A DNA stretch of 29,899 nucleotides from a virus. The translations under genes were made by a program, and so were the position numbers. Positions 4,201 to 29,899 of this stretch are shown here, piece by piece. The stretch is from positions 1-29,899 of IMG/VR virus record IMGVR_UViG_3300002835_000782; one strand, written 5' to 3'. Position 1 is the first letter of the stretch. The number at the start of each line of letters is the position of its first letter. The notes below the pieces were generated by a model. The model made no database searches and was not told the origin of the DNA. It worked only from the letters and a program-made list of their open reading frames with translations.

Positions 4201-7200
4201 ATCCGAAATTAGTTCTGCTCTTGTTATTGTAGCAGTTGCACCACTTGTTTCACCAACAATAGTTGCGCCAGATGCAACATATCCATAATATTGTTCTTCC
4301 GTAGCTAAAACTCTTACACCAAAATTGATAAGTTTTGATGTTGCTGAATAGGATTCTCCTGGTGCTGGTCTAGTCTTATCATAAGGATCAACACTATAAT
4401 TTTCAACAAGAACTGATGGAGATCCAAGTCCTGCTCCAATATCTGGTCTGGAAGTGTCGCCAAACTTATGATTTGGTTTTTGAATTCTAATATATCCAAT
4501 TTGTCTTCCACCAAAATAAATACGTGCATTTTCAAAGACCTGGAAAGTTCCAGATTGCATAGAAATTTCACAAAGTTTTGGAACAATATCAACCTGTTGA
4601 CTATCCAAATAATGATAATGCTTTGTGAATGGTCTTAAACCATTGGCATTAAAATAAACGTTTCTAGAACGCATAAATGGATCAACAGTTCCACTTATCT
4701 TAACATCCTCAACATAATTAAATTCTCTAGCAGGTCCAGTTAATTTAGGTGTATATTGTGTAGTAGTTGTAGTAGTTGTTGTTGTTAAAGTTCTTACACC
4801 CTTTTCACCTCTACCACCACCTTTATTATATGTTTCAGTTTCTGTTTTTTTATTAACATCAGTATTAACGCTTGCTTCTTGAACCCATTCTGCTCCAGTT
4901 GATTCTGTTCTTTGATCATCGATATAAATGGTTCTAACCCAATTATCTGATGCAGGATCAAGTACTACGCCACCAACAAAAACAATAACATTAAATGGAT
5001 TTACATTCTCAACATTTGTTGCGTGAGGTTGTTCAATCCAATCAACTTCCGTATATGCTAATGTTAAAAGATCTCCGGTTTTTTGGATATTTGGATCTAA
5101 TAGTTTTAAGTTCTGAGTTATATCTGTTTGTGTTCTATCAATACCAGGATCCAATGCCAATTCTGCTGGAATTGACCAAAAATCAACGGGAACAATACCA
5201 GTAGGATCAGATTTGCTAATGTCAATAGTAGTATATCTTTTATCAGCAAGTGACTTATCCCTAAAACTGGTAACAATAAATCCAGACTTAAATCTATTGA
5301 GTCCAGTTGCATCTGTTACTTCAAGCGTTTGTGCTTTAAGTTCAAGCATACTTAGACTTGTAACATCTTCTAGATTTTCAATTCTTTGTTCTAACTTTGC
5401 GATATCACGCATTGTAAATCTTCTATTATCCCTTAATAGAATTTTTGGATCTTTTTGGGGGTTATAAAGATATGCGGGATAACTAATTTGAGCGAGCTCC
5501 ATCGCATCGTCAGAAAGAATTGGAGAACGAGGATCATCACTAGGTTCACCTTGTACAACTTCAACTTCTCCAAAACGATTGACAGTTACTAAATCAACTC
5601 TTGGTAAGTAGTAACTATATCCGATAAATGAAGTCTCATCTGGTGAAACAATATATCTAAAATTACTTTCATAAGATCTTGAACTGAATGCAAACGGTGA
5701 AGAAGTTGCCGTAGATGGATCAAATTCTTGAACTCTTGGTCTAAAATCAAGAATGTCAGACGCACGAGTTCCATCTGGAACAGTAGGTATATCACTTGAA
5801 TACCTATCTTCCGTATATGAATTTACTGTGAATAAATCTCCACTATTTCCTGGCGCTATCTTATAATAATCAAAAATGATTAATAATTGACGAGATGGAA
5901 TAGCACTTCCAGTCTTTCTTCTTATTTTTGAGTAATCGCAATATTGATTTTTATGTCCTTTATCTAAAATATAATTAGTAGTTCTATCAATATAACTACC
6001 AGGAGTTATTTGTTGAATTACTGCATTAATAGAGGATTCTTTAAATGTAACATTCTCACCAACTTCAAAATTATTTTCATTTAAATAAACGAATTCAATT
6101 GTTGACGCAGTTTTATTAACAACTTGTGCAACAGATCTACTATTTTGACCTACTATTTTTTCTCCGGTAATTGCATTTGTATCTAATGCCAATCCAGTAG
6201 CAAATGTTAACGTATCTAATACAGGCGTCGATGTATTTGTCGATTCGTATACTGCACGAATGTTGACAACATCTGGAACATTCAATGATACATCTTCATC
6301 TTCCACCCTAAGACCATAATACTTACTTGTGGTGAGTCCAGAAGCAACTGATCCTGTTTGTGTTGAAATACCACTAGTTCTAGTGACTGATATTTGTCTA
6401 CTTCTTATGAAGTCTTTTGATTTATTTGTAACCTGTCTCTTATTTAATGTTACAATAACAGTAACATTTGATTGACTTGCTCTCAATCCTGTAAAGGTTA
6501 TTGAGGTTCCATTAGATCCCAAACTAAATTTACCAGAATTTAATTCATCTGTTATACCATCACTATAATGGACAGAATATCTCTCAGCATCAAACGCCTC
6601 AAAAAATACGCTTGTAATTCCTGCACTAGAATCTAAAGCGTCTGCTGTAGTGATTGTTAATGATCCTGATCCATTTGTAGATCTTCCGGTAATTTGCTTT
6701 GTGATTGTAAGTTCGGATTGAGAAAGATCAACAGAAGCAATATTTATTTTTGGAAGATTTGCATATAGACCAGAGGAAACAAGATTTAAGATCTTTGGCT
6801 CCATCAATGAAAATACAGAATCAGTTGTTGCAGCTGGTAATCCATTATCACAAACTGACGTAACTGCATATCCAGTTGCAGCAAGAGTTAATGCAGTTCC
6901 GTCAGCAGAAATTGCTGATATTCTATTAAATGTTGGATCTGTATTTCCACTTTCTTGATACCTTATTATTGCCTCAGTTTTAATTCCAGTAGTTCCAGAG
7001 AAAAATCTACCAGGAGATTTTGCTGTACCACCTGTTGTGATATTTAATTTGTCAGTAATTGCAAAATTAGGAGGAGTTCTCTCATATAAAACTGTATCTG
7101 CAAAGAAATCTGTTTGTATTGCAGTATTCAGTGAATTCGAATCTTGATATACTGATTTAATATCTTCTGTTGTATAAACATTAAGTGCTTGAATAGCAAC

Positions 7201-10447: not shown

Positions 10448-13400
10448 TCATGATAAGTTAGAAAGTTTTCTAATTGCACCACTATTTCTTAATCCAAATG
10501 TCCTTCTTTGGATAGTTGGGAATGTTGACAATCCAGCATCTACAACTAAACCAGTAACACCAATAGAAATTGGATTTGGTCTGATTGCAAAATTATATAA
10601 TCTACCCCAAGAAATATTACCCAGAGGTAAAGTAGTAGAACCTGTTGTTGCAATTCCGACAATATTAGTATTAGTTTTAATATTGCAAATTATCTCAGCA
10701 TTTGGACCAGAGTTAGTTTTGGAATTTACAATATAAACATTATCTAAGAAACTAGTTCCTATTCCAACAATGGAAGAATCAGAACTATTTACTGAAGTGA
10801 CTCCAGTTCCAACAGTTGTATTGTATACCAATATCGGATATCCTGTTTGCAAATCATTAGCATCAGACGCATTTGCACGGAAATTAATTTTCAATGCTAA
10901 TGGATGTCCACCAGTTCCAGTTGTAGTACTAATACCAGTAATAATACCACTAAATCCTTGAACGTTTGCAATTCCAGTGATTGTTTCTGTAGTTGCTGAT
11001 GGAACTTCAACGATAAGATTTGGTGCAATTGTGTATCCAAATCCAGGATTTGTAATAGTAACGGAAACAACTTTTCCACCAGAAACATTAGCAATTGCTG
11101 TTGCGGTTGTCCCAATACCAATTCCTACACCTAGACCAACAGATTCCAATGCAAATGTCCCAACACCAACTGTTGGATTGGAAATTTTAATAGGAACATT
11201 TGTAGAATAACCAAGACCAGCATTTGTAATTGTAATTGCGGATATAGTTCCTGCTGCTGAAACTGTTGCTGTAAATCCAGCAGAAATTGGATCTGTACCC
11301 TGAACAATCAATCCATCTACGGAAGTGATCGTAACTCCATAGTTATTTTCTTCATAGTTGAAAAATTGTGCATTATCAACAAAAATATTAGAACTTCCTG
11401 AAGTAAGGTCTCCAATAATCTTAGCAGTTGGGTAAACATATGGTTCAAGAGAATCTCTGGTTTTGTAAACAATATCACCTTTAATATATTTGTCATTTTT
11501 TTGCTTAATCCATTCTATTGGTCTATAATAAGTTTCGTTAATACCAGTTCCAACATAAAGATCTGTTTCAACAGTATCTGATCCGATAATATCAACGATT
11601 GTTCTATCTCTTTCTTGACTTGATATTGATGGATAGAATGGACTTGTCTTAACAAAGACATCATCCCCAATTTTAATGGTTTCATTAACATCAATTAATG
11701 AAATATCAACTCCATCTTGACCAATATAGAAGAAAATATCGACTTTATCTGATGATTTTGGCGGTTCCGTAAATTCAAATGATGTACCACCAAAGAATCT
11801 ATATGCATAGGATGGTTCTTGTATTACTCCATTTACAAAAATTAAAAGAACCGCATCGAGATTAATTGCACCAGAAAGAGGATTATTAGGATCAACTTCA
11901 AAACTTAACAATTGACCATTGTAGTATAATGGGAATCTTGTTCTACTTCCATTTTGTAAAGTAGATACACTGTCAATATAGTTCATTTCACCGAATGACC
12001 AAGATGAGAAGAAATCTTGGTAAGTTTCAACAACTTCTAATTTAAATTCATCCAGTGGTTGTGCATAATCTTTTGCAGTCACGAGACCAATTGGTTTAAA
12101 TACATCACCAACTTGGAATGCATAACCAGGTCTTGAAATTTGGAAAGACTCAACTACAAACAAGGTAGAACCAATTCCAACAGTTGATGGTGAGGGTCCT
12201 ATCTTTATATTCATCAGTAGATTTGATCCAGTTTGAGTTGTTGATCCGACACCAACTCTAGAAACACCTATTACTGGTAGATTTTCATATATTGGTTCTG
12301 GTGTTCTAATATATGGTTCAACATAACCAGATCCAGCAGTTACAACTGTAAATGCTAATGTACCACCAGCACCAACGGTTGCTCTAATACTTGCAGCAAC
12401 TCCTGTATGATTTGAATCAGTAACTGCTATTGAAACTGGATCTCTGTACCCAGAACCATAATTTAAATCATACCAAGGAAAAACAGTACCAAGTCCAATG
12501 TAAGAATGTGGTAAAGTGCTTGTTCCCACATTTGCAGTAAATGACTTAGCAGAGAGAATTCCGACTATATCGTAAGAATAATCTAAACCACGTGAAGGGA
12601 AATAAGAAACAATACCAGCACCTGATGGGCAAGTAAATCCTAATCCAACTAATTTTATTCTATCACCACCAACAAAATTATGATCAGTTACTGTCGTTAT
12701 TTCAATAATACCAGTTTGATTGTTATATGATGCTGTGCTAATTGATTGTCCAGGTCCAGTATGAGAAATTCCAGTTATACTTACGATAGATCCAGATCCA
12801 TCTAAAACTGCTCTTACTTTTGCTCCAAGTAGGGGAGCATATCCTAGACCAGGTGTAGAACCAAGTGAAACAATTAGCCCACCTCTTGGAAGTTGATTTT
12901 GGTTGATATCAAAATCTGACTTAATATAAGTTCCATCAGTTGAAGTAATACCAGTAAATACAACACTAGAAATACCAGCAACATTGTCATTTACAAATTC
13001 ATAGTTATTTCCTGCATTATTAATAGTTGTTGGAGTTTGGAAGACACCATTAATGAACAATATACCATTGCCGATGGAAACACCAGTTGTATTAATTCCT
13101 TCAACAGTTGTAGTATAAGTTTTTCCAATTCCGGTAAATTGATCTGAGATGTCATCAAACACCATATTTGTGTCATAATTTGATCTTAAGAAAGTTCTAC
13201 CAGCATACTGTGCTCTTACATAAGGAAGATTGCTTGCATCTCTTCTTGCTCTCGTGTTTCCCTTTGGTGGATCTGCAAACCAAATTTCAGATCCAACTAT
13301 GTTGAACGATCCTCTATAAACTTGAACAGTCGCACCATCACTATGAGTTGTTGCCGTACTTCCAACCGATGCTCTTACAACAGAAACTGTTGGGAATGTT

Positions 13401-16400
13401 GCAATTCCGCTGGCATTGATAATTCCAGTAATATTTCCACCTGTGTTGGAACTTACGCCAACTTCAACAACCTTCATGTATTCATCATCAATTTTCAATA
13501 TATCTCTTGGTTGAATTGAAGAAATGCCACTTAAATTAAAAGTTGCAATACCAACACTAATTCCACCACTGTTGTATTGTAGTTTATGTGATATTGGAGT
13601 AAATGTAATTGGTTGCTGAACAATACCATCAAGAGAAATAACACTCTTTGATAGTTTCTTTGACATATCCAATTCATGTGCATTTCCAAGACCAGCAGAT
13701 GTGAAGGTTACTGCAATCCCCAATGCTGCATAAGATTTTTGAGTTGCTAACTTAAATGTATCTGGTGTGAGAGCAATAGGATATACTTTTTCTGGTAGTT
13801 TATCAGTTACAATTCCAAGATAATTTGCAGTTGCACCAATACCCATTGCACTTTGACCAACACCAATAAATGTTGATCTTGGATTATAAGTTAATTCTTC
13901 ACCGGTATTGAAGAAGTGGTTTCTAATGGTAAAGATTCCTGTTGCAAAATCAACTGTGGTAGTATCCGATGGGTCAAATATTTTTTTATAAATTGGTACA
14001 CCTTCATGCTTTAAACTGAAGTTAACTTTATTAGCTCTCGTCCCATTTATACTATCATATGCAGAAAGGAACAGTCTTTGATTTGTATTTCCATAATTTA
14101 ATTGAAGTGGTTCATTGTCGAAATCGCTGTAAGTATATAAAACTTCATTAAATCCTTGAACACTTGTGTTTGTGTTTGAAGAATCTGGATAGAAATTTAG
14201 ATAAAATTTATCTCCAAAGATTTGTCCACCAAATGTTCCAAGACCAGTTACATTATTTGCAGGTGAAAATGGACCAGGAACGATCGTAACGTTCTCAGTA
14301 TCGTTCAAAATAGAAACTTGATGAATTGCGGAACTACTACCAGATGAAACTCTTACAATAGATGAAACTGATGTTACCAAATTCAAATCAAAGGTTCCAA
14401 CTACAATAGATGTTGTTCCAACTCCAACCGTTGATTCTAATTTTGCACTTCTTTCCGAACCTGCTGGTTGCCCACTAACCAAGAATCTATATGTACCTAT
14501 GCCAGCACTAGTTGCTGCAAATCCAACAATATTTGCTCTTACATCAATAACATTATTTTCTTCATTTTGAACTCTAAATGAAACAATTCCAGCAGTAGAA
14601 TCATAAATTGCAGTTACAAGACCAATAGAAGATGAACTGTAAGATTGAGTTTTAGTATCAAAGTAATACTCACTTAAATGAGTATTAGATCCATCAAAAT
14701 CTAATGCCGCTTCAATATAGTTTACTTCTTTACTTAATGTATTTGTAACCTCAATGTTTGCAAATAGACCATTGAAATTGGTATTAGAAAATTGTGCAAT
14801 AGTTCTTATACTATTTGCTGTTCCTACAGTAGAAATTCCAATAATACTAGATCCTATCAAATTAATAGAACCAAAAGCATATGTTCCAATTCCAGTAGAT
14901 GGTGCTGCAAATGTTTTTTTCAAAATCTTAATATCATGATCTCTATCAAACCTATTTGTTGGTGTAAACAATAAGGTTTTTCTTCCAGAGTCGTCTACAT
15001 TGGCGCTAAATTCCCCAAGTAATTCATCTGTATATGCTGTATATTTTTCAAATAAAATAGAATCTAATGTAGATGTCTGTAAAACTAATTCAGTTATTTG
15101 GGAATATAATGTGTCTGGATCAACAACCTGAATAGTGTATCTTACATGAGTATCAATAGCATCAATCTCTTCTATTTCAACAAAAGGATCTTCAAATCCT
15201 CTGCTAGAAAATCTATTGCTAATGTCATCATGTATTAGTACTCTATTTGTTCTACACTCGGTGTAATCGGTTAACTTTTTATTTTGAATTTTTAAGAATT
15301 TGGATTGCTCTGGATTTGTTCTTGTATCATAATCAACAACGTTATCAAAATTATTAATAACGTCTACTCTTCTCTCCTCTATAATATCAAGAACAGCTAT
15401 ACTATTTGTAGTTCCAGAAAGTCCTACGGAAGCTTTCGTTGCGGAAATAATTCCAACATCAGCAAAATTTTTCAGTCCAGCGGGGTGAATAATGCTGTTT
15501 ACTGGTGATGAGGACTTATCCCATGTTATTGGACTCTTGATAGAATATGATAGATTTTGATAATAATCATTATCTGGTGTAACTTGGTAATCTTCGCTAA
15601 GTTTACCAGTATCATTTCTCCATCCAATATTTTGTTTTGATGAATAATCAACTTTAAATCTAGATTTATTTTCTTTAATAGAAATTACATCTGCTATTAC
15701 GCCACTTATTTTTCCTTTAATTTGATCACCTTTTTTAAGAGAATAAGATCCATTAACCTTAATAAATTCATCTCTTATTGCTGACACAAACAAATCCTGT
15801 TCAGCGAATCCTGATCCAACATTAACGAAAAGTTGCTCATTTGAAGCAAATTTTGCTCTCTTTTTAATTATATTAATTTCTGGATAATATTTTTTGTTAA
15901 TAATGGAGGCATATCCAGACTGGAAAGTTTTTGCTATACCTGGATTTGTTGATAGACCAGCACCAAGCTCATCTACAACTGCAAAAGTTAATACCGCTGG
16001 ATTGGAATTGACATAAGATTGTATTTTAAAGAATCTATAATCATAATTTTCCGAATTGTATCCAGTTCCAGTGCTACCATCAATTAAATCAATACCCTCA
16101 ACAAAAATTTCATCACCATCAGCAAATAGTGGAGATGAGAATCCTAAAATTGGAGTTGCTAATGTACACGTCGCTACACCAGCATTTCCTGTTACAATAG
16201 AACTAATTCCAACACCATTAGAATTATTAATAGAAATTATTTTATGTAGATCTGATTTTAATCCATATATTGGTGCTATTTGTTTTACTTCAGATATTGC
16301 ACCACTTGGAGTAATTGCAACTAAAGAAGAGTTATCAATAACAGTTTTTGTTTTATCATTCCAAAGTAGTAAATCTGGTGCAGTTAAATATCTAGATCCA

Positions 16401-19400
16401 CCAAAAACTATATCAATTTGATCAATTGTATCTAAATTATCTAAATTTATGATTGGAGAAATAAATGCCTCTGGTGTCAGTGTTTTGTCTGATGGATATT
16501 CGTAACCAATGTCTTTAATTCTGACATTTTTAATTTTTCCAATTGATGTAGATATTGCCAAGACATTAGCATTTTGACCATTTTCACTTTCAATATTGGC
16601 AAATTTTGGAAGTTTTTTGAAATTAAATCCTTCTGAAATAATTTTTACCTTTCCAATCGTTCCATTTATAGCTGTTGAAGATTTTGTTGAATATTCTAAC
16701 TTATCAGTTTGGTCAACCGTATATTTTAAGACAGTTGGAACTTTTGAAGGGGATATACTGAATGAATCTGTTGAAACCCCAAAAATATTGTAGGTCCCAT
16801 TATATTCACTATTCACATAGTTAATTTGTGAATTATTTGCAACATCTTTATCAGATGTGCTTATATATCCAGATTTTTCTAGTGCATAGAAAAGTTTAGA
16901 TGGTAAATTCTCAGTATATTCAATTGAAAGTGCTGCTGTTCCAAATCCAACTGTACCAATTCCAATAACATTAAAATCTCCTGAATCGCTTGTACTTATG
17001 AATTCATCAGTAAATTTAGCATCTTTGAAAATTTTAAGTTTATACCCACTCAAAGACGAATCTCCGAGATTAAACTTAATAGTAGAATTTTTAACTACAT
17101 CAATACTCGGATTTATAAGTGCAAACGTATGAATAGATGCACCAGTTCCTACAATATTTACAACCTTTTGATTTGGTGGGACTGTTTCATAACGGGTTTC
17201 TGCAAGTCTAAATTGACTACTACTATCTCTAATTACGTAATAAGATCCAGTTTCTAATCCAGAAGCAACTTGTGTACTGTTATAAAATATCTTATCGCCA
17301 GTATTGTACCCATGATCTGCTATTGTAATTGTATTTGTTGTGATATTGATCTGCGAAGAATTAATCCCAATTGGATTGATTAATAACTTCTTCTCATCTT
17401 CGTTAAATGCAACTGTTAAAGCCGATGTAGTTCCTAGACCAACAACAGTATTTGGGGATACTGTTAACTTGATAGTATCTCCTTCAGATAATCCATGAGT
17501 CTGAGCAACACTTATTGTAGTAACTACTCTATCTACTTGTCCGGTTACTTGATTGTAATTAGTTTGTAACAGATACTCAGAATTATTTGACCCATCACTG
17601 TAAAAATATAATCCCTCACTATTGGTTGTTAACCCAACCTGAGTTACTAATCCAACATAATCCTTCCCTTTACTGATTATATAAACATCAGATGTTAATG
17701 TAGTTGTGTTTGGAATTTGGAATGTATTCAGATTAGATGGATCATTTCCAACAATCAATGAATCAACACCTGCAAGGTCGGATTTTGTAAATGTAATTCT
17801 TTGTCCGGTCTTAAAGGGGTGATTTGGAAGATATATGCTTCTATATGGAATCGATACTGTTTGAGTAGTAACTCCTATTGTAAATTCTTTATATACCGCT
17901 CCTCCTGGTGTAGTTCCAACACCAACAGAATTTTTTGCATTAAAATAAACTAAATCATTATTTTTAGACTCAAATAATGGAATTTTGGATTTGCTCTTAA
18001 TAGAAATTCTATCACTTATAACATTTAAACTACTACCGTAAGTATGTGCAACTCCAGAACTTGCATATCTTTTAACTCTTAAAACTCCATTATTGTAATC
18101 ATTCAATACTCTTACAGTTTCTGTACCGAGATCTGATCTAATAAAAATGCTACCTCCAATAGAAACTGTTGGTCTTGTAGAAACAAAAATATCTTCTATT
18201 AATCCACCAGGAGTTGAAGAATAACTATTCATGGTCTTTGCAAGACCAACAGTTTCAGTGGTAAATCCTATTTTTTTAGATCCAGAAAGATTAATAATAG
18301 ATGTTGAAAGTCCACTGATTAAAACTGTATCATTGTCGATTAAATTAAATCCAGATCTATAATGTGCAGAAACAACTTCATCTGTACTCCATACAAAGAC
18401 ACAAGGAGAATATGATTCGAAATTTGTTTCAATCTGAGTAATGTTTTTACCTATTAGTTCAGAAATTTCTGCTCTGAGTCCGATTCCGCCAGTATCTTCT
18501 TGATCAAAATTAATTGTTTCTCCAATTTTATATCCAGTTCCACCATCAACTATGCTAATATCATTAACATCACCTTTTTTAACTGACTCAATAACACTTA
18601 CTTGAGGTAATACTTCATATGGCTCAACTAGAAAATCGTAATTGGCATATTTATCATTAAGTTTATATGGAAGTGTATTCCTAATGAGATTTGAATTATT
18701 AAAATCAAAACTTTGATCTAAGTAAGAATTTTCCTGTATAAAGGAAGACTTGAAAGTATTTCCAATAAAGTATGGGTATAAGGGTTCAAGTTTATTAGAT
18801 ACAATACTTGTAGTTACACCAGCGAAGTAAGCATAAACTCCATTTGGAAACTCGGGAGTTTTGCAGAATCTTCCATTATGTCTATCAAGATCACCATTAC
18901 CATCATATTCAAAATCTTCAATGAAAAATCCAGAAGAGAATGATGGTCTATTAGAAACTTTTGTGGTATTTAAACTATAACTTGGATTTATAATTCTAAC
19001 GCCAGACTGAACATCATCTGGATTGGAATATCCATATGGTCCATAGATTGGATTTCCATCATATGCCCATCCAATAATTGGGGAATGGGAAACACCATTA
19101 TCGGAATAATTAGTTGCCAAATCTTCGGAATATCCGTATATTCCATATACAAGAGAATTGTCAACAAGATTTTTATTAAGACTTGAGAATATTTTTGGAG
19201 TTCTTAATCTTGAATATGCTGCGTATCTCTCTGCGTCATTGACTGTAAGATCTCTAACCTTTACATCAAATAGTGCTCCAGAACCTTTTGGTTTTACTTG
19301 AATTGTTGCATTAGTTGAACTGTAACCAATGCCAGAGTTAATTACAATAACATCTGTAATTTTTCCATCATTAATTACAGGTCTAAGAATAGCACCAGTA

Positions 19401-22400
19401 CCATCACCTGTTGCATTTAAATCAGGAGTAGAATAATATTCAGAACCCGTACTTAAAACTTGAACATCAATAATTCTACCATTTGAAACAATAGGATTTA
19501 ATTGAGCATTTTTACCATTCTTTAATGTGATTAAAGGTTTTTTATGTAGATTTAATGTATTTGATCCATATTCAGTTCCATTCTCATACAGATAAGATCC
19601 TATAATCTCACCAGTGACGATTGGAGTGAATGTAAAATTGCCGGTAAAAGTTGACCCATAAGAAACATTGGCGTTGACTTCAATTGGTGGATATTCGAAA
19701 ATGTGATATCCAGATCCTACTGATTTAATATCAACGTATTTGCCTCTTGTAAGATCTGTGGTTACAGTAGCTCCAATTCCTACGTTAATTAATCTAAATG
19801 AATCTGAGTCAATTAGATCTATCGAGTAATTGGTAGTAGTTGATAATCCTGAAATTGAGGTTCCAGTTGTTGAATAGAATACAATATCACCCGAAGAAAA
19901 CCCATGATTCTTAAATGTAACAGTATTATATTCAGTAGAAATTCCTGATGGTTGGACTCTTAATTTTCTGTATTGATATCCAGATCCACCTGCTAAAACT
20001 TTTATACTTCTAAGAGTATTTTTTGATACAGTTCTAAATTTATGAATACCTGCAAATGAAGTTGAAGTTGAAAATCCAATTGTATTAATACCAGCTAAGT
20101 AATCAGATCTTGTGTTAAAAAGTTTAATCGTTCTGGTATTAACAAATTTTGCGACATACTCATCGCCACTCACCAAAGTTCCAGTAGGAGTATTTGAAAT
20201 ATCTCCAAAAGTTCCAACTAAAATAGGATTGTTTCCATTTTGATTGTAAATTACTCTTTCACCATCAGCAAAATTGTGGAACGTTGTGAAGGTAATAGTT
20301 TCGTCAGTTAAATCAACTCCACCACCAATAGTAAGTGCTCTACTATCAAAATCAACTTCTCTAAATCTTTCACCCATTACTGGTTCTAGGATGCATCCAG
20401 ATCCATTACCACCAGTTACAGTAACTGAAAGAACCTTATCAATATCAAAATCTTGTGGATCAACATAAACTGCTTTTACAGTACCACTAATAATTGGATC
20501 AACAAGCGCAGTGACTCCTGTTCCAGTGGTAGATCCAGTGGAAATTGTAATTTTTGGAGGATTAACAACATCATAATCTTTACCAGAATTTAATACATCA
20601 AATTCCTTTATAGGTCCATAGTAAATTTTATCAAGTGATTCTGGACTAGAAATTTCAACACCATCAATTAAAATTCCAATTCCACCAATAGTATTATTAA
20701 TCGATCTTCTCAAATCAGTGCCTGGATTTGAAGAAATCTTTTGAATTGGGAACTTTCTTAAAATCTTATTTGGCGATATTGATCTATCTTCATGTTTTTT
20801 TAATGTAAATCTATGAATTCCAGATGTTGAATTCTCAGAAAACTTGACATATTCAGACCCACTTAAAAGTCCTTTCGAGGCATATAATCTTATACTATTC
20901 GATGCAACTACTTTGACATAGTATTCAAATCCAGATACTAATCCAGAAAGTGGTTCATCAGAAGTATATACTACTATATCACCATCAATAAATCTAACAT
21001 TTGATGGGAATTTAATTATTGAATATGCCTGAGCAACATTATCATAGTCATCCAAATAAGTTGAAGATCCATTAGGTATAGAAGCATCTATAATTTCATC
21101 ATTGATTTGATACGAAGGTAAAGAATTTGATGCAACATAACCTAATTTATCACTATCGCTATAAACGTTTAAAATATTTGAAATATAATTGTTATTTCCC
21201 AACAAGAGTGGTACATTTAAACTACTCGATTTTTTAATTTTTCTTCGGATGTCATAAGACTGGGTTGAACTTGGTAAAAATCCAGAAATATTACTTAGAA
21301 TAACTTGGTTTAAAGCACTATTGATGTTGGTAACTACTGCATTTGCAGAAGCAATATTATTAGTATATGCATATAAAATATCAACAATATCACCCTCACG
21401 TAAACTAGACTTATCAATCACACTCAACAGTGTAAAAGTTGATCCAGAAATATTTGATACTTGATATCTTGTGCTTGTATTGTAAATCCAAGAATTTGCA
21501 AATATTTCTTTATAAGTCCTATCTTCCGCTGGATTTTTAATTACTTCTCCAAGATTTTTAACCGTTAGTTCTTCACCCTCATCTACAAGAGAGATATCCC
21601 CAACCTCTTCAAATTCTGAAATAACACCTGTTATGCGAAGATCAACTCTTTTTGATATATCTCCATTTTCATAACCATAGATCGTTTCATTTGATCTAAT
21701 GTCTGAGGCAATAGTTATTGTACTAGTAATTCCTGTACAACCAAAAAATTGATTTATACTCTTTGATGTATATTCGATTATATCATTTCCACATATTAAA
21801 GTTCCTGTCTGCCCAAATCCAATTGTAGAATCAACAGGAATAATTGAAGATCCTACTGAAACTGATTCTAAAATTCTTGTTTTACCTGGAATTGTAAAAA
21901 TACCTTCAATTAGGTCTCTTTCATTATATCCTACAAATAATCCCAACTTGTAATATGTTTCATTATTTCTTGTAAAAACTTCAATATCAGAGACTGATGC
22001 ATTTGTGTTTACATCTGTCGATTTAAATATAGTTTGACCTTCTAATTTAAAAGGATCTCCAGAAATATTTTTGGCTACAACAAGTTCTCTTCTAATATAA
22101 TCGGCAGATGATGGTTTAATTAATCTACCTTCAAGATCTAAAACAATTGCATCTGCACCATATAAAACTTTAAATAAAATTTTAACAGACTCTTCAATAC
22201 CTTTTGATTGGTAGAAGTTTCTTGCATGTTTAATAAAATTACCTACATCAAGATCAGAAACAAAATCATAATTTTCCAGTCCAGGAGTAAATGTATACTT
22301 TAACTTTTTATAAAATTCTTGTAAGAATAAAACGCTTAAATTGATTACTTTTGAATTTTTGGTATGACTTGCTTCAGTTGTCTTGGAAAAAGTTAAACTT

Positions 22401-22831
22401 TGTTTGTTGACGTTATCATCAAAACTTGATATGCCAACATTGTTGTAGTTTGTAATTCCACTAAATCCACGAATACATCCAGTAAAGGTATTTGTCGTAA
22501 TACCACTGTAAGTGATAATTTCATTATCAATTTTTAGAAGTCCATATTCGGATGGAAATCCTTTTGTTGAGGTGACAGTAATAATTCCAACAGAAGATGT
22601 TACATCATATGATAAAATTGTTTCTCCATTAATAACTTCTGGAACCAAATTATCAAGCTTTAAATACTGATCTAAATTTTCAACAATGTCTACATTTCCA
22701 CCTTGAAATTCTTGGGAAATGTAATATTGTTTGAAGAATTCAGTTGCTTTTGGAAAATCCGAAACTATAAATTCTGGAAGTTGACTCTCAATAATTTTAT
22801 TGATTTGTACTCTCTTCTCAAAATCTGACAT
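10448..22831 (-). CDS. Giant baseplate/virion structural protein in the gp7 position, with YHYH domain (4127 aa)
   Basis: An uninterrupted 4127-residue frame of 12.4 kb, 3 nt downstream of gp6. A GAGAGGAAA ribosome site inside the gp6 stop region decides the start. The N-terminus (MSDFEKRVQINKIIESQLPE, then ATEFFKQYYISQEFQGG) has a helical look. Most of the rest is repetitive beta modules of two kinds. One is GSGY-like (for example GGSGYQYRK, NSGIGYSST, TAGSGYVEP, NAGLGYSTN, NPGFGYTIA). The other is H-x-F/Y/L-x-x-G-D, as in NHGFSSGDIVFY near residue 973 and DHGYNTGDKIFY near 1838. Residues about 1245-1340 carry a YHYH-type domain: SHSPIIGWAYDGNPIYGPYG, then LDRHNGRFCKTPEFPNGVYA. T4 has gp7 (about 1032 residues, the wedge initiator) in this position, so gp7-like is a positional inference. 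Adhesion or glycan contact by the beta modules is speculative. Confidence 0.85.
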   Translation of the reverse strand: MSDFEKRVQINKIIESQLPEFIVSDFPKATEFFKQYYISQEFQGGNVDIVENLDQYLKLDNLVPEVINGETILSYDVTSSVGIITVTSTKGFPSEYGLLKIDNEIITYSGITTNTFTGCIRGFSGITNYNNVGISSFDDNVNKQSLTFSKTTEASHTKNSKVINLSVLFLQEFYKKLKYTFTPGLENYDFVSDLDVGNFIKHARNFYQSKGIEESVKILFKVLYGADAIVLDLEGRLIKPSSADYIRRELVVAKNISGDPFKLEGQTIFKSTDVNTNASVSDIEVFTRNNETYYKLGLFVGYNERDLIEGIFTIPGKTRILESVSVGSSIIPVDSTIGFGQTGTLICGNDIIEYTSKSINQFFGCTGITSTITIASDIRSNETIYGYENGDISKRVDLRITGVISEFEEVGDISLVDEGEELTVKNLGEVIKNPAEDRTYKEIFANSWIYNTSTRYQVSNISGSTFTLLSVIDKSSLREGDIVDILYAYTNNIASANAVVTNINSALNQVILSNISGFLPSSTQSYDIRRKIKKSSSLNVPLLLGNNNYISNILNVYSDSDKLGYVASNSLPSYQINDEIIDASIPNGSSTYLDDYDNVAQAYSIIKFPSNVRFIDGDIVVYTSDEPLSGLVSGFEYYVKVVASNSIRLYASKGLLSGSEYVKFSENSTSGIHRFTLKKHEDRSISPNKILRKFPIQKISSNPGTDLRRSINNTIGGIGILIDGVEISSPESLDKIYYGPIKEFDVLNSGKDYDVVNPPKITISTGSTTGTGVTALVDPIISGTVKAVYVDPQDFDIDKVLSVTVTGGNGSGCILEPVMGERFREVDFDSRALTIGGGVDLTDETITFTTFHNFADGERVIYNQNGNNPILVGTFGDISNTPTGTLVSGDEYVAKFVNTRTIKLFNTRSDYLAGINTIGFSTSTSFAGIHKFRTVSKNTLRSIKVLAGGSGYQYRKLRVQPSGISTEYNTVTFKNHGFSSGDIVFYSTTGTSISGLSTTTNYSIDLIDSDSFRLINVGIGATVTTDLTRGKYVDIKSVGSGYHIFEYPPIEVNANVSYGSTFTGNFTFTPIVTGEIIGSYLYENGTEYGSNTLNLHKKPLITLKNGKNAQLNPIVSNGRIIDVQVLSTGSEYYSTPDLNATGDGTGAILRPVINDGKITDVIVINSGIGYSSTNATIQVKPKGSGALFDVKVRDLTVNDAERYAAYSRLRTPKIFSSLNKNLVDNSLVYGIYGYSEDLATNYSDNGVSHSPIIGWAYDGNPIYGPYGYSNPDDVQSGVRIINPSYSLNTTKVSNRPSFSSGFFIEDFEYDGNGDLDRHNGRFCKTPEFPNGVYAYFAGVTTSIVSNKLEPLYPYFIGNTFKSSFIQENSYLDQSFDFNNSNLIRNTLPYKLNDKYANYDFLVEPYEVLPQVSVIESVKKGDVNDISIVDGGTGYKIGETINFDQEDTGGIGLRAEISELIGKNITQIETNFESYSPCVFVWSTDEVVSAHYRSGFNLIDNDTVLISGLSTSIINLSGSKKIGFTTETVGLAKTMNSYSSTPGGLIEDIFVSTRPTVSIGGSIFIRSDLGTETVRVLNDYNNGVLRVKRYASSGVAHTYGSSLNVISDRISIKSKSKIPLFESKNNDLVYFNAKNSVGVGTTPGGAVYKEFTIGVTTQTVSIPYRSIYLPNHPFKTGQRITFTKSDLAGVDSLIVGNDPSNLNTFQIPNTTTLTSDVYIISKGKDYVGLVTQVGLTTNSEGLYFYSDGSNNSEYLLQTNYNQVTGQVDRVVTTISVAQTHGLSEGDTIKLTVSPNTVVGLGTTSALTVAFNEDEKKLLINPIGINSSQINITTNTITIADHGYNTGDKIFYNSTQVASGLETGSYYVIRDSSSQFRLAETRYETVPPNQKVVNIVGTGASIHTFALINPSIDVVKNSTIKFNLGDSSLSGYKLKIFKDAKFTDEFISTSDSGDFNVIGIGTVGFGTAALSIEYTENLPSKLFYALEKSGYISTSDKDVANNSQINYVNSEYNGTYNIFGVSTDSFSISPSKVPTVLKYTVDQTDKLEYSTKSSTAINGTIGKVKIISEGFNFKKLPKFANIESENGQNANVLAISTSIGKIKNVRIKDIGYEYPSDKTLTPEAFISPIINLDNLDTIDQIDIVFGGSRYLTAPDLLLWNDKTKTVIDNSSLVAITPSGAISEVKQIAPIYGLKSDLHKIISINNSNGVGISSIVTGNAGVATCTLATPILGFSSPLFADGDEIFVEGIDLIDGSTGTGYNSENYDYRFFKIQSYVNSNPAVLTFAVVDELGAGLSTNPGIAKTFQSGYASIINKKYYPEINIIKKRAKFASNEQLFVNVGSGFAEQDLFVSAIRDEFIKVNGSYSLKKGDQIKGKISGVIADVISIKENKSRFKVDYSSKQNIGWRNDTGKLSEDYQVTPDNDYYQNLSYSIKSPITWDKSSSPVNSIIHPAGLKNFADVGIISATKASVGLSGTTNSIAVLDIIEERRVDVINNFDNVVDYDTRTNPEQSKFLKIQNKKLTDYTECRTNRVLIHDDISNRFSSRGFEDPFVEIEEIDAIDTHVRYTIQVVDPDTLYSQITELVLQTSTLDSILFEKYTAYTDELLGEFSANVDDSGRKTLLFTPTNRFDRDHDIKILKKTFAAPSTGIGTYAFGSINLIGSSIIGISTVGTANSIRTIAQFSNTNFNGLFANIEVTNTLSKEVNYIEAALDFDGSNTHLSEYYFDTKTQSYSSSSIGLVTAIYDSTAGIVSFRVQNEENNVIDVRANIVGFAATSAGIGTYRFLVSGQPAGSERSAKLESTVGVGTTSIVVGTFDLNLVTSVSSIVRVSSGSSSAIHQVSILNDTENVTIVPGPFSPANNVTGLGTFGGQIFGDKFYLNFYPDSSNTNTSVQGFNEVLYTYSDFDNEPLQLNYGNTNQRLFLSAYDSINGTRANKVNFSLKHEGVPIYKKIFDPSDTTTVDFATGIFTIRNHFFNTGEELTYNPRSTFIGVGQSAMGIGATANYLGIVTDKLPEKVYPIALTPDTFKLATQKSYAALGIAVTFTSAGLGNAHELDMSKKLSKSVISLDGIVQQPITFTPISHKLQYNSGGISVGIATFNLSGISSIQPRDILKIDDEYMKVVEVGVSSNTGGNITGIINASGIATFPTVSVVRASVGSTATTHSDGATVQVYRGSFNIVGSEIWFADPPKGNTRARRDASNLPYVRAQYAGRTFLRSNYDTNMVFDDISDQFTGIGKTYTTTVEGINTTGVSIGNGILFINGVFQTPTTINNAGNNYEFVNDNVAGISSVVFTGITSTDGTYIKSDFDINQNQLPRGGLIVSLGSTPGLGYAPLLGAKVRAVLDGSGSIVSITGISHTGPGQSISTASYNNQTGIIEITTVTDHNFVGGDRIKLVGLGFTCPSGAGIVSYFPSRGLDYSYDIVGILSAKSFTANVGTSTLPHSYIGLGTVFPWYDLNYGSGYRDPVSIAVTDSNHTGVAASIRATVGAGGTLAFTVVTAGSGYVEPYIRTPEPIYENLPVIGVSRVGVGSTTQTGSNLLMNIKIGPSPSTVGIGSTLFVVESFQISRPGYAFQVGDVFKPIGLVTAKDYAQPLDEFKLEVVETYQDFFSSWSFGEMNYIDSVSTLQNGSRTRFPLYYNGQLLSFEVDPNNPLSGAINLDAVLLIFVNGVIQEPSYAYRFFGGTSFEFTEPPKSSDKVDIFFYIGQDGVDISLIDVNETIKIGDDVFVKTSPFYPSISSQERDRTIVDIIGSDTVETDLYVGTGINETYYRPIEWIKQKNDKYIKGDIVYKTRDSLEPYVYPTAKIIGDLTSGSSNIFVDNAQFFNYEENNYGVTITSVDGLIVQGTDPISAGFTATVSAAGTISAITITNAGLGYSTNVPIKISNPTVGVGTFALESVGLGVGIGIGTTATAIANVSGGKVVSVTITNPGFGYTIAPNLIVEVPSATTETITGIANVQGFSGIITGISTTTGTGGHPLALKINFRANASDANDLQTGYPILVYNTTVGTGVTSVNSSDSSIVGIGTSFLDNVYIVNSKTNSGPNAEIICNIKTNTNIVGIATTGSTTLPLGNISWGRLYNFAIRPNPISIGVTGLVVDAGLSTFPTIQRRTFGLRNSGAIRKLSNLS

Positions 22832-27685: not shown

Positions 27686-27840
27686 TTGGGGATCTCTTCG
27701 TATCTTAGGTCTTCAAGACTATAATCAGTTTTCATAATACCGACCATATTACGAAGAGTCTTCCAAGTTACATCAAATTCTCTTTCATCGACAGAGTGAA
27801 ATAAACACTTATCTTTTGCATAGATATCGTATTTTTTCAT
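27682..27840 (-). CDS. Small unknown protein (52 aa)
   Basis: The 52-residue product starts MKKYDIYAKDKCLFHSVDER and continues EFDVTWKTLRNMVGIMKTDY, ending LEDLRYEEIPN. It has no membrane segment or recognised motif. A good ribosome site (AGAGGA) lies within the end of the preceding gene. The ATG overlaps that gene's stop as ATGA, indicating translational coupling. The pattern of a short alpha/beta protein with KCLFH near the N-terminus is one I have seen among cyanophage small genes, but no function is known to me. Its stop codon overlaps the -35 box of the next promoter. Confidence 0.6.
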   Translation of the reverse strand: MKKYDIYAKDKCLFHSVDEREFDVTWKTLRNMVGIMKTDYSLEDLRYEEIPN

Positions 27841-28010
27841 TCACTTTCCTCTGAAAGAATAATATCATTACCATCTAAATTAAAGGTAATTTCTGTGTCC
27901 TCATACCAGGATAATTCGTTGATCATCCATTCTGGTATTTTAACCGAATATTCACCTGTAATTGGATCAACCTCTATGGGGCGTTTTTCCTCTCCGGATT
28001 TTTTTCTCAT
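27837..28010 (-). CDS. Small AbrB/MazE-like protein (57 aa)
   Basis: A 57-residue protein: MRKKSGEEKRPIEVDPITGE, then YSVKIPEWMINELSWYEDTE and ITFNLDGNDIILSEESE. The order strand (SVKIPEWMINEL), short helix, W-x-E-(D/G)-T/D-E-(I/V), then strand plus DGNDIIL resembles the swapped-hairpin AbrB/MazE/SpoVT fold, which dimerises and binds DNA. That would make it a small transcriptional regulator or an antitoxin relic. There is no toxin gene next to it: the coupled downstream 52-residue protein (ATGA overlap) does not look like a MazF or PIN toxin. The fold assignment is by eye and moderate. The basic N-terminal tail (RKKSGEEKR) would suit nucleic-acid contact. Confidence 0.55.
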   Translation of the reverse strand: MRKKSGEEKRPIEVDPITGEYSVKIPEWMINELSWYEDTEITFNLDGNDIILSEESE

Positions 28011-28041: not shown

Positions 28042-28788
28042 TTATTCAATAATTAAGTTCCAAATCATTGTTTTTTTACATCTAGAACTTGCAAGATTTG
28101 AAGCGATACGACTTACGGTTCTATTTTTATTTTTCATTCTCATATTTACAAAGTCATAATTCTCTTTTACCCATTCTCTAAGATTATATCCTTCCCATTC
28201 CTTTCCACTTAGAGTGTCTATGATTTTATAATATTTTTTATTTCCTTCTGATGCATTATCAAATCTGCTGATCCACCTCAGATTTTTGTAATGATTGTTT
28301 TTCTTATTCTGATCAATATGATCTATTTCAGTATAATTTTGAGGATTTGGTATAAAGGTTTCTGCAACTAATTGATGAATACTTCTTTTAATTTGTTTAT
28401 AGTTTCCATTCTCATCATATATTGAAATGTTTATACATTCATAACGTAATTCTGGATATTTTGGATGTCCTCTAAAAGCAGGTTTTAGATAAATTAAACC
28501 ATATTCATTTACTTTACCGTATTTTCCAGTTCGATCATATTTTCCAGGTTTGCGATATGCTCTACCATCTTCTGTAATATAATAACCAGGATACTGAGTT
28601 TCCTTCATATCCTCAGGAATTTTTATTTCTGGATAATTATAAGTCACTTTTTCTTTTGGTTTACCTATGGGAATATTCCAATTTTCTCTTGGTTTTTTCA
28701 AGTAAACCCATTTTCCATCTTTTTTGATGAATTGTGCGCCTTGCTTATTTGTTTTAATTGTTCCTTCTGGAAGTTTCTGTTTTCCCAT
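28042..28788 (-). CDS. Free-standing HNH homing endonuclease (248 aa)
   Basis: I take ATG at 28788 (MGKQKLPEGTIKTNKQGAQF), preceded by AAGG 6 nt upstream; an in-frame TTG two codons earlier is less likely. Around residue 66 is a NUMOD4-like DNA-binding module (QYPGYYITEDGRAYRKPGKY). The HNH nuclease core follows: His138 in SIHQLVAETFIPNP, Asp156-His157 in EIDHIDQNKKNNHYKNLRWI, and Asn165. The C-terminal segment (GKEWEGYNLREWVKENYD, then RTVSRIASNLASSRCKK) looks like a NUMOD1/helix-turn-helix DNA-contact region. Such enzymes cut a specific target and spread by copying themselves and their flanks into related phages. All core residues are intact. It has its own position beside the sharp composition change at 28.9 kb. 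No flanking intron was recognised. Confidence 0.85.
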   Translation of the reverse strand: MGKQKLPEGTIKTNKQGAQFIKKDGKWVYLKKPRENWNIPIGKPKEKVTYNYPEIKIPEDMKETQYPGYYITEDGRAYRKPGKYDRTGKYGKVNEYGLIYLKPAFRGHPKYPELRYECINISIYDENGNYKQIKRSIHQLVAETFIPNPQNYTEIDHIDQNKKNNHYKNLRWISRFDNASEGNKKYYKIIDTLSGKEWEGYNLREWVKENYDFVNMRMKNKNRTVSRIASNLASSRCKKTMIWNLIIE

Positions 28789-28794
28789 GATCAA

Positions 28795-29015
28795 CCTTGT
28801 ACTGATAAATTTTTTGCGAAAAATTTTTTGATTTTGAATGTATTTGAATTTATGATTTTGAAATGCCTTTATGATTTATCGCGCTTTCGTAACACTTTGT
28901 AGACTCAGGGATCCATTGCGATTTAGAACGACCCCCCCCCTTATACCCCATCACGCGCCGCGCCCGACCCCCGCACCCCGCGGGGGACCTGCATCCTCAC
29001 GAACGCAGAGGGGGG
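28795..29015 (-). other. Gene-free junction between AT-rich and GC-rich DNA
   Basis: No convincing gene lies in these 221 bases. The 28801-28860 stretch holds only 11 G/C of 60 bases and includes an AAATTTTT/AAAAATTT hairpin around 28808-28827 and two copies of GATTTTGAA. A run of nine C follows at 28932-28940. From there to 29015 the DNA is extremely C/G-rich with nested inverted repeats. No clear promoter for the HNH gene was found. The arginine/proline-rich plus-strand frame here is not credible. Confidence 0.6.
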
Positions 29016-29023
29016 TCACCCCC
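28966..29023 (-). repeat. Nested GC-rich inverted repeats after the 57-aa gene (possible terminator or RNA structure)
   Basis: GACCCCC (28966-28972) pairs with GGGGGTC (29011-29017). Inside are a CCCCGCGGGG palindrome (28976-28985) and a CTGC/GCAG pair (28989-28992 with 29005-29008), which together could form a three-way junction. The same GGGGG run can instead pair with CCCCC at 29019-29023, around the TGA stop at 29016-29018, so two folds exclude each other. No U-tract follows. Low-complexity C/G sequence gives such repeats easily, so function is unproven. Confidence 0.4.
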
Positions 29024-29189
29024 GCCCTGCGTGTGCCTCAGAGTACTGGGCGGCGATGGCGGTAGCGGGCACTCCCCAATGGATGTACTGAGAGGGGCGG
29101 GATCCGTTCTTCAGTTGATCAGCGCGGGAGATCCACTTGATCTGGCGGGTCTGGAGGTCAGAGCACATGGCAAGGGGGAAGCGGGTCAT
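29016..29189 (-). CDS. Small unknown protein of the GC-rich block (57 aa)
   Basis: I chose ATG at 29189 (MTRFPLAMCSDLQTRQIKWI, then SRADQLKNGSRPSQYIHWGV). A longer frame reaches a GTG at 29255, but a promoter with -35 TTGACC and -10 TACAAT (29214-29243) lies inside that extension, so its first 22 residues are probably not translated. The 57-residue product has no recognised domain; it is basic and ends EAHAGRG. Third codon positions favour C and G, unlike every gene from 28.8 kb downwards. No Shine-Dalgarno sequence precedes the ATG. It is the last gene of the array, and its stop lies inside a GC-rich inverted repeat. Confidence 0.55.
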   Translation of the reverse strand: MTRFPLAMCSDLQTRQIKWISRADQLKNGSRPSQYIHWGVPATAIAAQYSEAHAGRG

Positions 29190-29213
29190 CGGTCTGAGGT
29201 GTGAACTGAGAGA

Positions 29214-29243
29214 ATTGTAGAGCACGAAGGGGGCAGGGGTCAA
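29214..29243 (-). promoter_or_regulatory. Promoter P3 of the GC-rich array
   Basis: Minus strand: -35 TTGACC (29243-29238), 18-nt spacer, -10 TACAAT (29219-29214), followed by TCTCTCAGTTCA, almost the same leader as P2. The ATG at 29189 is 24 nt beyond the -10. The -35 contains the TGA stop of the upstream 62-residue gene. Confidence 0.75.
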
Positions 29244-29428
29244 TACCCCAGCCACGAAAGGAACTCACCCGCATCCACGGGACCGAATCGGGCGGTCACC
29301 CCATAGTCGGTTCGGAAGTCATCCCACAGACCATGATCCTTTGCTGCCTGGCAGGCGGCGGACCAGCGGATGCACCCGTTCTCATCGGCGCAGTTCCAAA
29401 CGATGGCGGGGAAGGTGGAGCAGTGCAT
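29240..29428 (-). CDS. Small cysteine-bearing unknown protein of the GC-rich block (62 aa)
   Basis: A 62-residue protein, MHCSTFPAIVWNCADENGCI followed by RWSAACQAAKDHGLWDDFRT. It has four Cys in the first 26 residues (positions 3, 13, 19, 26), which could bind a metal, and an acidic C-terminal half ending AGEFLSWLGY. The spacing C-x9-C-x5-C-x6-C is not a finger I recognise. The ATG lies 21 nt beyond the TACAAT of promoter P2 and has no Shine-Dalgarno. Codon third positions are strongly G/C. Its stop forms part of the P3 -35 box. The ending FLSWLGY resembles the FLNGY ending of the partial gene at the window edge, so they may be distant relatives; this is weak evidence. Confidence 0.6.
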   Translation of the reverse strand: MHCSTFPAIVWNCADENGCIRWSAACQAAKDHGLWDDFRTDYGVTARFGPVDAGEFLSWLGY

Positions 29429-29442
29429 GGGGTTGTCTGAAC

Positions 29443-29462
29443 TGAGAGTATTGTAGCAGATC
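29443..29462 (-). promoter_or_regulatory. Promoter P2 of the GC-rich array (20-bp repeat copy)
   Basis: The plus strand reads TGAGAGTATTGTAGCAGATC, identical base for base to P1 at 29811-29830. On the minus strand it gives an extended -10 TGCTACAAT (TACAAT at 29455-29450). There is no convincing -35, so the TG extension may matter. The ATG at 29428 is 21 nt beyond the -10, as in P1. The repeat overlaps the stop of the HELIH gene. Confidence 0.75.
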
Positions 29463-29796
29463 AGGGGTTGAAGCGGTCGGCGTAGACCTGTTCCAGGCGG
29501 TATGCTTCGGATTCGCGGGAGTCGCTGTCCAGGTTGCCCTCCAGAGTTTGGCGGCAGTGGATCAGTTCGTGAATCAGGGTCACCACGTATTCAGAGCGGG
29601 GCAGGTTGCGCTCCACTTCCACCAGGAACTCCAGGTCATCCTCCTGCTGCTGCCATCCTACCACACCCTCAGAGGTCAGGCGCTTATGATGAACCGTGAT
29701 CGCCGCGGCCCCCAGCAGCGGTTCCTGATCAAGCATGAAGCGGTAGATCTGCTGTGCCAGGCGGGGGCGTTGCTTCTGTCCTGAGGTGAGCAGCAT
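29461..29796 (-). CDS. Small HExxH zinc-metallopeptidase-like protein (111 aa)
   Basis: A 111-residue protein with the zinc-binding helix YVVTLIHELIHCRQTLEG: His76, Glu77 and His80 form HExxH. It is followed 17 residues later by ESEAYRLEQ, where Glu97 is a plausible third ligand as in gluzincins. This is a minimal SprT/M78-like metallopeptidase layout, and helices flank the site. There is no signal peptide or membrane segment, so it would act in the cytoplasm. Targets are unknown; cleavage of a host regulator would be one possibility but is speculation. The gene sits behind promoter P1 with no Shine-Dalgarno. It is G/C-rich at third positions, and its TGA stop overlaps promoter P2. The family name is uncertain; the motif itself is clear. 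Confidence 0.68.
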   Translation of the reverse strand: MLLTSGQKQRPRLAQQIYRFMLDQEPLLGAAAITVHHKRLTSEGVVGWQQQEDDLEFLVEVERNLPRSEYVVTLIHELIHCRQTLEGNLDSDSRESEAYRLEQVYADRFNP

Positions 29797-29810
29797 GGGT
29801 CGGTTGCGGA

Positions 29811-29845
29811 TGAGAGTATTGTAGCAGATCGGCGGAGCGGGTCAG
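29811..29845 (-). promoter_or_regulatory. Promoter P1 of the GC-rich array (20-bp repeat copy)
   Basis: Minus strand: -35-like CTGACC (29845-29840), 16-nt spacer, extended -10 TGCTACAAT (TACAAT at 29823-29818), followed by ACTCTCA. The block 29811-29830 is identical to that at 29443-29462. The ATG at 29796 is 21 nt past the -10. The upstream gene's TGA stop lies within the -35. Confidence 0.78.
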
Positions 29846-29899
29846 TACCCGTTCAGGAAGTCCGCCAGTGCCTCACGGTACTCTGCCTCCGTCTCAAAG
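29842..29899 (-). CDS. C-terminal end of an unknown gene (cut by window edge)
   Basis: Only the last 18 residues are visible, FETEAEYREALADFLNGY and a TGA stop at 29844-29842, with the gene entering from beyond the high-coordinate edge. The frame is open to the edge, codons are G/C-rich at third positions like the rest of the block, and the stop overlaps promoter P1 in the same way as the other genes of the array. No function can be given. Confidence 0.5.
   Translation of the reverse strand, partial: FETEAEYREALADFLNGY

Follow-up and report, generated by a model that had tools for sequence, protein, structure and literature searches.

At one end of a 29,899-nt stretch of viral DNA, hereafter the window, three TACAAT boxes stand on the minus strand, each ahead of a small gene. 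Why should successive small genes each carry nearly the same promoter, and is the arrangement peculiar to this contig or part of a wider system?

Near-identical putative promoters at the end of the window

Reading inward from the contig edge, the first feature is the 3' end of an F27-family small gene (29842..29899, minus strand), truncated by the contig end and recognized from its translation, which closes with FETEAEYREALADFLNGY; full-length F27 homologs are positioned ahead of other cassettes in loci L006, L072 and L100. The putative promoter P1 follows (29811..29830, minus strand; GATCTG-C-TACAAT-ACTCTCA), with TACAAT at 29818-29823, an extended -10 TGC and the core of a 205-member motif set described below. 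It precedes gene F11 (29461..29796, minus strand), whose 111-aa product is a predicted small zincin-like metallopeptidase with a HELIH motif and conserved E95, E97 and E102. P2 (29443..29462, minus strand; TACAAT at 29450-29455) repeats the P1 20-mer and contains the TGA stop codon of F11; behind it lies F2 (29240..29428, minus strand), which encodes 62 aa of unknown function modeled as helical and has a dN/dS of 0.35. P3 is a third copy, a shorter variant of the 20-mer without the extended -10 (core CTACAATTCTCTCA, 29207..29220, minus strand; TACAAT at 29214-29219), and sequence reading places a -35-like hexamer, TTGACC (29238..29243, minus strand), 18 nt before its -10 and overlapping the F2 stop. 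The last gene, F1 (29016..29189, minus strand; 57 aa), has 28 homologs in arrays and a dN/dS of 0.61; a longer reading from a GTG (29016-29255) is less likely than the ATG start behind P3. On the 3' side of this cassette, the GC-rich region ends in non-coding DNA (28902..29015, minus strand) that has no Rfam match and folds no more stably than its shuffles.

The original prediction of an identical 20-bp block in two of the promoters proved exact at P1 and P2 (plus-strand form TGAGAGTATTGTAGCAGATC, minus-strand form GATCTGCTACAATACTCTCA). With up to three mismatches the 20-mer occurs in the window only at these two sites, against 0.01 occurrences in shuffles, and a search for the core with at most one mismatch found no minus-strand copy in the window beyond P1-P3. 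The distances from -10 to ATG are likewise as proposed, at 21 nt for P1 and P2 and 24 nt for P3. A further proposal, that every promoter overlaps the upstream stop codon, holds with some qualification: at P2 the F11 TGA lies within CTGATCTGC (29461-29463), at P3 the F2 stop (29240-29242) sits in the TTGACC hexamer, and at P1 the upstream stop (29842-29844) is outside the 20-mer, 18 nt before TACAAT.

The suspicion that the array runs past the window edge was correct: a 61-kb contig (G012/L094), 99.7% identical to the window over 3.1 kb across the GC junction, carries the same three cassettes and more upstream. Differences between the two over these 3.1 kb are found only around P1 and its leader (29785-29860), where there are four substitutions and one 6-nt indel; upstream of the P1 leader, the window's version agrees with the sequence at the F27-F2 junction of L072. 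The comparison suggests a recent promoter swap at P1, which is close to the contig end.

Anatomy of a compact cassette

Further copies, sought on the strength of the same prediction, turned up well beyond this contig: the exact 20-mer is present in 83 stretches of IMG/VR viral contigs. In 27 larger records nearly all core copies fall in one cluster on one strand, with one array per record and an almost empty reversed-pattern control. In these larger relatives the typical cassette spans about 240 bp and is arranged in tandem, each unit consisting of a promoter, an A/C-rich leader and a gene of about 60 aa; the small open reading frames following a core and an ATG mostly encode 45-115 aa.

To describe the element we used a motif set of 205 distinct promoters, whose related members are not independent. 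The proposed design of promoter plus small gene is supported by an exact TACAAT in 193 of the 205, an ATG start in 203, and a base composition of its own. The extended -10 (TG) occurs in 146 promoters, and a TTGAC -35 at 15-19 nt spacing in 35, as compared with 0-2 at control offsets. This -35 is found in 22 of 59 promoters lacking the extended -10 and in 13 of 146 having it (Fisher p=5e-6, kinship ignored). Leaders measure 13-24 nt in all but one case, are composed of 47% C and 27% A with little structure, and contain a Shine-Dalgarno-like site in only 18 of 205. In 89 cases the promoter is fused to the stop codon of the gene before it. Where the stop is not fused, the 42 nt upstream fold more stably than shuffles (-13.6 vs -11.1 kcal/mol); where it is fused, there is no excess (-10.7 vs -10.2 kcal/mol). 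No T tract of a stem-loop terminator was seen in the promoter contexts inspected. This anatomy is observed directly, and its features fit a compact early promoter read by host sigma-70; such use is inferred from sequence, as activity has not been demonstrated and there are no transcription data.

Other promoter types recur as well, CTATACTGATCTCAGTTCA in 124 cassettes and TAGAATTCCAAAGCAAC in 22; these types, the exchange of cassettes, the GC-rich island and its place in a known hot spot were not part of the original prediction. Families are not bound to one type: 28 of 43 occur behind at least two, and more than one type is present in 123 of 166 loci, the reversed control being zero. Among homologous cassettes, 304 of 761 fit none of four promoter patterns, some starts perhaps being misplaced. 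In 62 loci lacking the exact 20-mer, sampled via their proteins, the core still precedes 81 of 247 homologous cassettes (reversed control, 0). A second recurrent promoter, GACCCCCTATACTGATCTCAGTTCA, lies before many small genes in L165, L167, L168 and other related arrays.

Cassettes are exchanged with joints at the promoters

The clearest exchange involves a 225-bp F12 cassette that is 99.1% identical between L013 and L055 and has unrelated neighbors on both sides in each. The shared block begins at the GATC of the cassette's own promoter and runs to the CTCTCA of the next, placing both joints in the flanking promoters. Two further single-cassette exchanges resemble it when near-identical arrays are counted once, which leaves three clean cases only. 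More broadly, 36% of the 418 ends of blocks with at least 92% identity lie within 30 nt of a TACAAT, compared with 13% at random (2.8-fold), and they pile up at both edges of the 20-mer. For 81 pairs of homologous cassettes whose upstream DNA is unrelated, identity is 0.95 at the core and drops upstream to the unrelated background of about 0.6. Separately, L131 and L134 agree in their upstream DNA and almost entirely in their F2 gene, but the leader from TACAAT to ATG has been exchanged (ACTCTCATCCGCAACGGACCCC vs ATCAAAGCAACCGACACCGACCCG). Immediate neighbors vary, while family order is largely kept (307 vs 23 pair observations), which suggests cassettes gained and lost along a common order more than it suggests free shuffling.

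We consider it probable that in this locus a T4-like cyanophage carries an array of small early genes directed at the host, shuffled at repeated standard promoters. The host's housekeeping RNA polymerase would read the near-identical promoter of each cassette of about 240 bp, an extended -10 TGCTACAAT set between GA(T/C)C and CTCTCA; a promoter missing the extended -10 would often rely on a TTGAC -35, possibly laid over the previous stop codon. Each transcript would begin with a C/A-rich leader of 13-24 nt lacking a Shine-Dalgarno site and encode one high-GC small gene (median 62 aa), its stop often in or against the next promoter. Each cassette has its own promoter, and therefore every gene could be transcribed at once as the DNA enters, before the late promoters (TATAAATA) switch on; this early timing is inferred. 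The repeated promoters would also supply homology for gain, loss and exchange of cassettes when phages co-infect a cell, leaving every phage with an individual subset of a common pool. Most likely the products are directed at the host, in takeover or anti-defense, a role that is likewise inferred.

That cassettes are exchanged as modules, with the joints lying at promoters, is thus an observation, and the promoter repeat as the cause, like homologous recombination as the mechanism, an inference. Phage genomes are mosaics whose joints generally fall at gene boundaries, and the cassettes might share nothing more than a strong early promoter, with illegitimate recombination and selection for between-gene joints doing the rest and the repeat not serving as a recombination site. 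That account remains a serious possibility, short of likely. It too predicts junctions at gene ends, and it agrees with the largely kept order and with near-identical array pairs, in which differences are not enriched at promoters. It does not anticipate the F12 block running exactly from GATC to the next CTCTCA, or block ends accumulating at the 20-mer edges; neither is decisive, however, because a functional promoter would likewise make a block seem longer. The array could be an integrase-free viral counterpart of an integron gene-cassette array, with one array per phage drawing on a pool of immediately expressed anti-host or anti-defense proteins shared by a community of cyanophages and the promoter acting as both expression signal and recombination joint, a reading that we put forward tentatively and with somewhat more doubt than conviction.

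Relation to known promoter-marked gene clusters

The host-takeover module of the Bacillus subtilis phage SPO1 comprises about two dozen small early genes by which the phage redirects its host. The array resembles it as a cluster of small, putatively early genes; to our knowledge, cassette exchange is not known for that module. The array also resembles the PeSLs (promoter early stem-loop), which Arbiol in 2010 and Comeau in 2014 are said to have described as mobile regulatory cassettes of T4-type phages. PeSLs are early promoters repeated beside small accessory genes, for which modular shuffling between related phages was proposed (PMC4503421). The likeness extends to T4-like phages, repeated putative early promoters by small genes, and a proposed role in shuffling. 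The array element differs in being an extended -10 with GA(T/C)C...CTCTCA, mostly without a -35, in often holding the upstream stop codon, in showing excess stem-loop folding only where that stop is not fused, and in its host group, the cyanobacteria. The marine cyanophage S-PM2 has only sparse elements of this kind, promoters and stem-loops alike (PMC4503421). It also carries an 'ORFanage', a cluster of small ORFans also reported from freshwater metagenomes, where synteny is seldom conserved; this matches the array as a small-ORFan cluster in a T4-like cyanophage and differs in that the reported promoters and stem-loops are sparse (PMC4503421).

A near-identical early promoter also marks unrelated small genes in archaeal viruses, and some of the proteins inhibit CRISPR or toxin-antitoxin defense (PMC11065993). 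That system uses a TATA/BRE promoter, and no cassette exchange is described in the parts consulted (PMC11065993). The idea is known in outline from T4 PeSLs and archaeal anti-defense promoters; what differs here is the element itself, the group of hosts and the form of the cassettes.

The Start Associated Sequences (SAS) of Cluster K mycobacteriophages lie 3-7 nt before the start and have a Shine-Dalgarno core (PMC3203893). Like the array element, they are short repeats before many small non-structural genes in one orientation, sometimes with a stop codon inside (PMC3203893). They raise the question of whether the 20-mer is mainly bound by a phage regulator or acts in starting translation, in the manner of SAS or a stoperator, and is no promoter at all. 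That GATC is conserved on the upstream side and CTCTCA on the downstream side, beyond a sigma-70 consensus, would suit such a role, as would the fact that SAS likewise mark many same-orientation small genes, some with the upstream stop inside (PMC3203893). The array's -10 element, however, lies 20-30 nt from the ATG and does not meet the SAS position and Shine-Dalgarno criterion: the core ends 13-24 nt before the ATG and Shine-Dalgarno sites are rare. The core is moreover centered on a -10 hexamer, and a missing extended -10 is often offset by a -35. We regard this alternative as unlikely, although an operator superimposed on the promoter is not excluded.

A pool of small protein families

The 20-mer had also been proposed as the marker of an unexplored set of small genes, and in a first sample it led to 300 cassettes in 52 families with a median product of 62 aa. 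Cassette genes are 62% GC overall and 74% at third positions. Most of these open reading frames are real genes, because 10 of the 11 families examined have a dN/dS of 0.13-0.62; purifying selection is thus observed for most genes tested, the remaining family, F0, having a dN/dS near 1. Almost all families are of unknown function (F5 corresponds to DUF7249), and a search with PADLOC for known defense and anti-defense families gave no convincing match among the cassette products.

In F11 (dN/dS 0.18), residues H76, E77 and H80 of the HELIH are invariant in 12 sequences; the protein has weak Pfam metallopeptidase matches, and its AlphaFold model (pLDDT 87.5) gives weak matches to zincins (best E 0.009; 3e11, TMq 0.52). 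On this modeled and sequence evidence F11 appears to be a minimal zincin-like metallopeptidase; the HExxH is present and activity is untested. A longer F11 relative (SGYGY...HELVH, about 150-170 aa) occurs in four sequences, from three array loci and S-SRM01 (L005, L016, L023 and L117). The F2 model (pLDDT 84) is helical and has no confident PDB match, low-scoring calmodulin matches having been discarded.

The diversity of these families bears on a different history, in which tandem duplication of a single promoter-gene unit, followed by divergence, gave rise to an old, vertically inherited cluster. Units are similar in length and design, and their order is semi-conserved. Yet the 52 families have no detectable similarity at E 1e-5; no family occurs twice per array in the strict set, and paralogs are exceptional in the wide set (two F2 genes in L013). 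One cassette is 99% identical beside unrelated neighbors, and a single family can stand behind different promoter types. Such a history seems improbable to us.

The array is probably a store of uncharacterized proteins produced early in infection, their timing being inferred. Its promoter can be read as a bar code that lets host-directed candidate genes be listed straight from sequence: one motif of 13-20 bp picks from metagenomes dozens of families of about 60 aa, almost none with a known function. The same logic, applied to archaeal viruses, yielded new anti-CRISPR and anti-toxin proteins (PMC11065993). The array would also make testable the long-discussed idea that repeated early promoters drive gene shuffling in T4-like phages, because single cassettes can be traced between phages.

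A GC-rich island in uncultured cyanophages

In the larger stretches examined, the array forms a GC-rich island of 1.3-5.1 kb (56-61% GC) with flanks of 43-55% and 35-38%. An abrupt change in GC near a contig end might betray a chimeric assembly joining a GC-rich end to a cyanophage contig, an explanation that we find barely credible, given that the independent contig G012/L094 spans the junction at the identity reported above and over 20 larger contigs carry the same island with flanks of matching kinds.

Arrays are widespread in uncultured cyanobacterial viruses. DNA-level scans found no array in phage GenBank, the 20-mer was in none of the cultured phages searched, and F1 and F2 had no match when sought in GenBank phages; this absence from the cultured phages searched marks a cultivation gap. 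Other repeats in cultured relatives (CTCTTATAAACCTTCT, TCTCGACGAG) were set aside as short tandem repeats or as not regularly placed before genes. A host origin of the promoter was also rejected: a scan of bacterial and archaeal genomes gave 10 scattered matches in unrelated taxa, near our own chance estimate of 6-12, and none in picocyanobacteria.

By its gene content the window is a fragment of a T4-like cyanophage. It encodes gp25 (phrog_261, E 2.5e-53), speD (S-adenosylmethionine decarboxylase, phrog_3125) and a gp6 with 61-66% identity to those of P-SSM2, S-SRM01 and S-SKS1. The T4 late motif TATAAATA, seen before structural genes, lies on the coding strand ahead of three window genes including gp25; its count in the window is not by itself above chance, and it is the positions that are telling. 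The array promoters lack this late -10 element and have TACAAT as their -10.

Marine T4-like cyanophages have a small-gene hot spot between gp46 and gp25 (Sullivan 2010, PMC3037559). The array occupies this same place, directly upstream of the gp25 region, and small accessory genes surround the array element in this T4-type myovirus genome. The matching regions of P-SSM2, S-SRM01 and S-SKS1 contain small genes but no core copies (at most one mismatch) and no comparable GC-rich island.

Between the array and a small gene at 27837-28010 lies an HNH endonuclease gene (28042-28794, minus strand). Apart from L094, relatives resemble the window only from about 28038 on, so this gene looks like an insertion here and may encode a homing endonuclease next to the hot spot. 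Farther away, the tail/baseplate region holds two giant minus-strand genes of 2535 aa (1246-8853) and 4127 aa (10448-22831), the latter directly after gp6, at the position of gp7 in P-SSM2.
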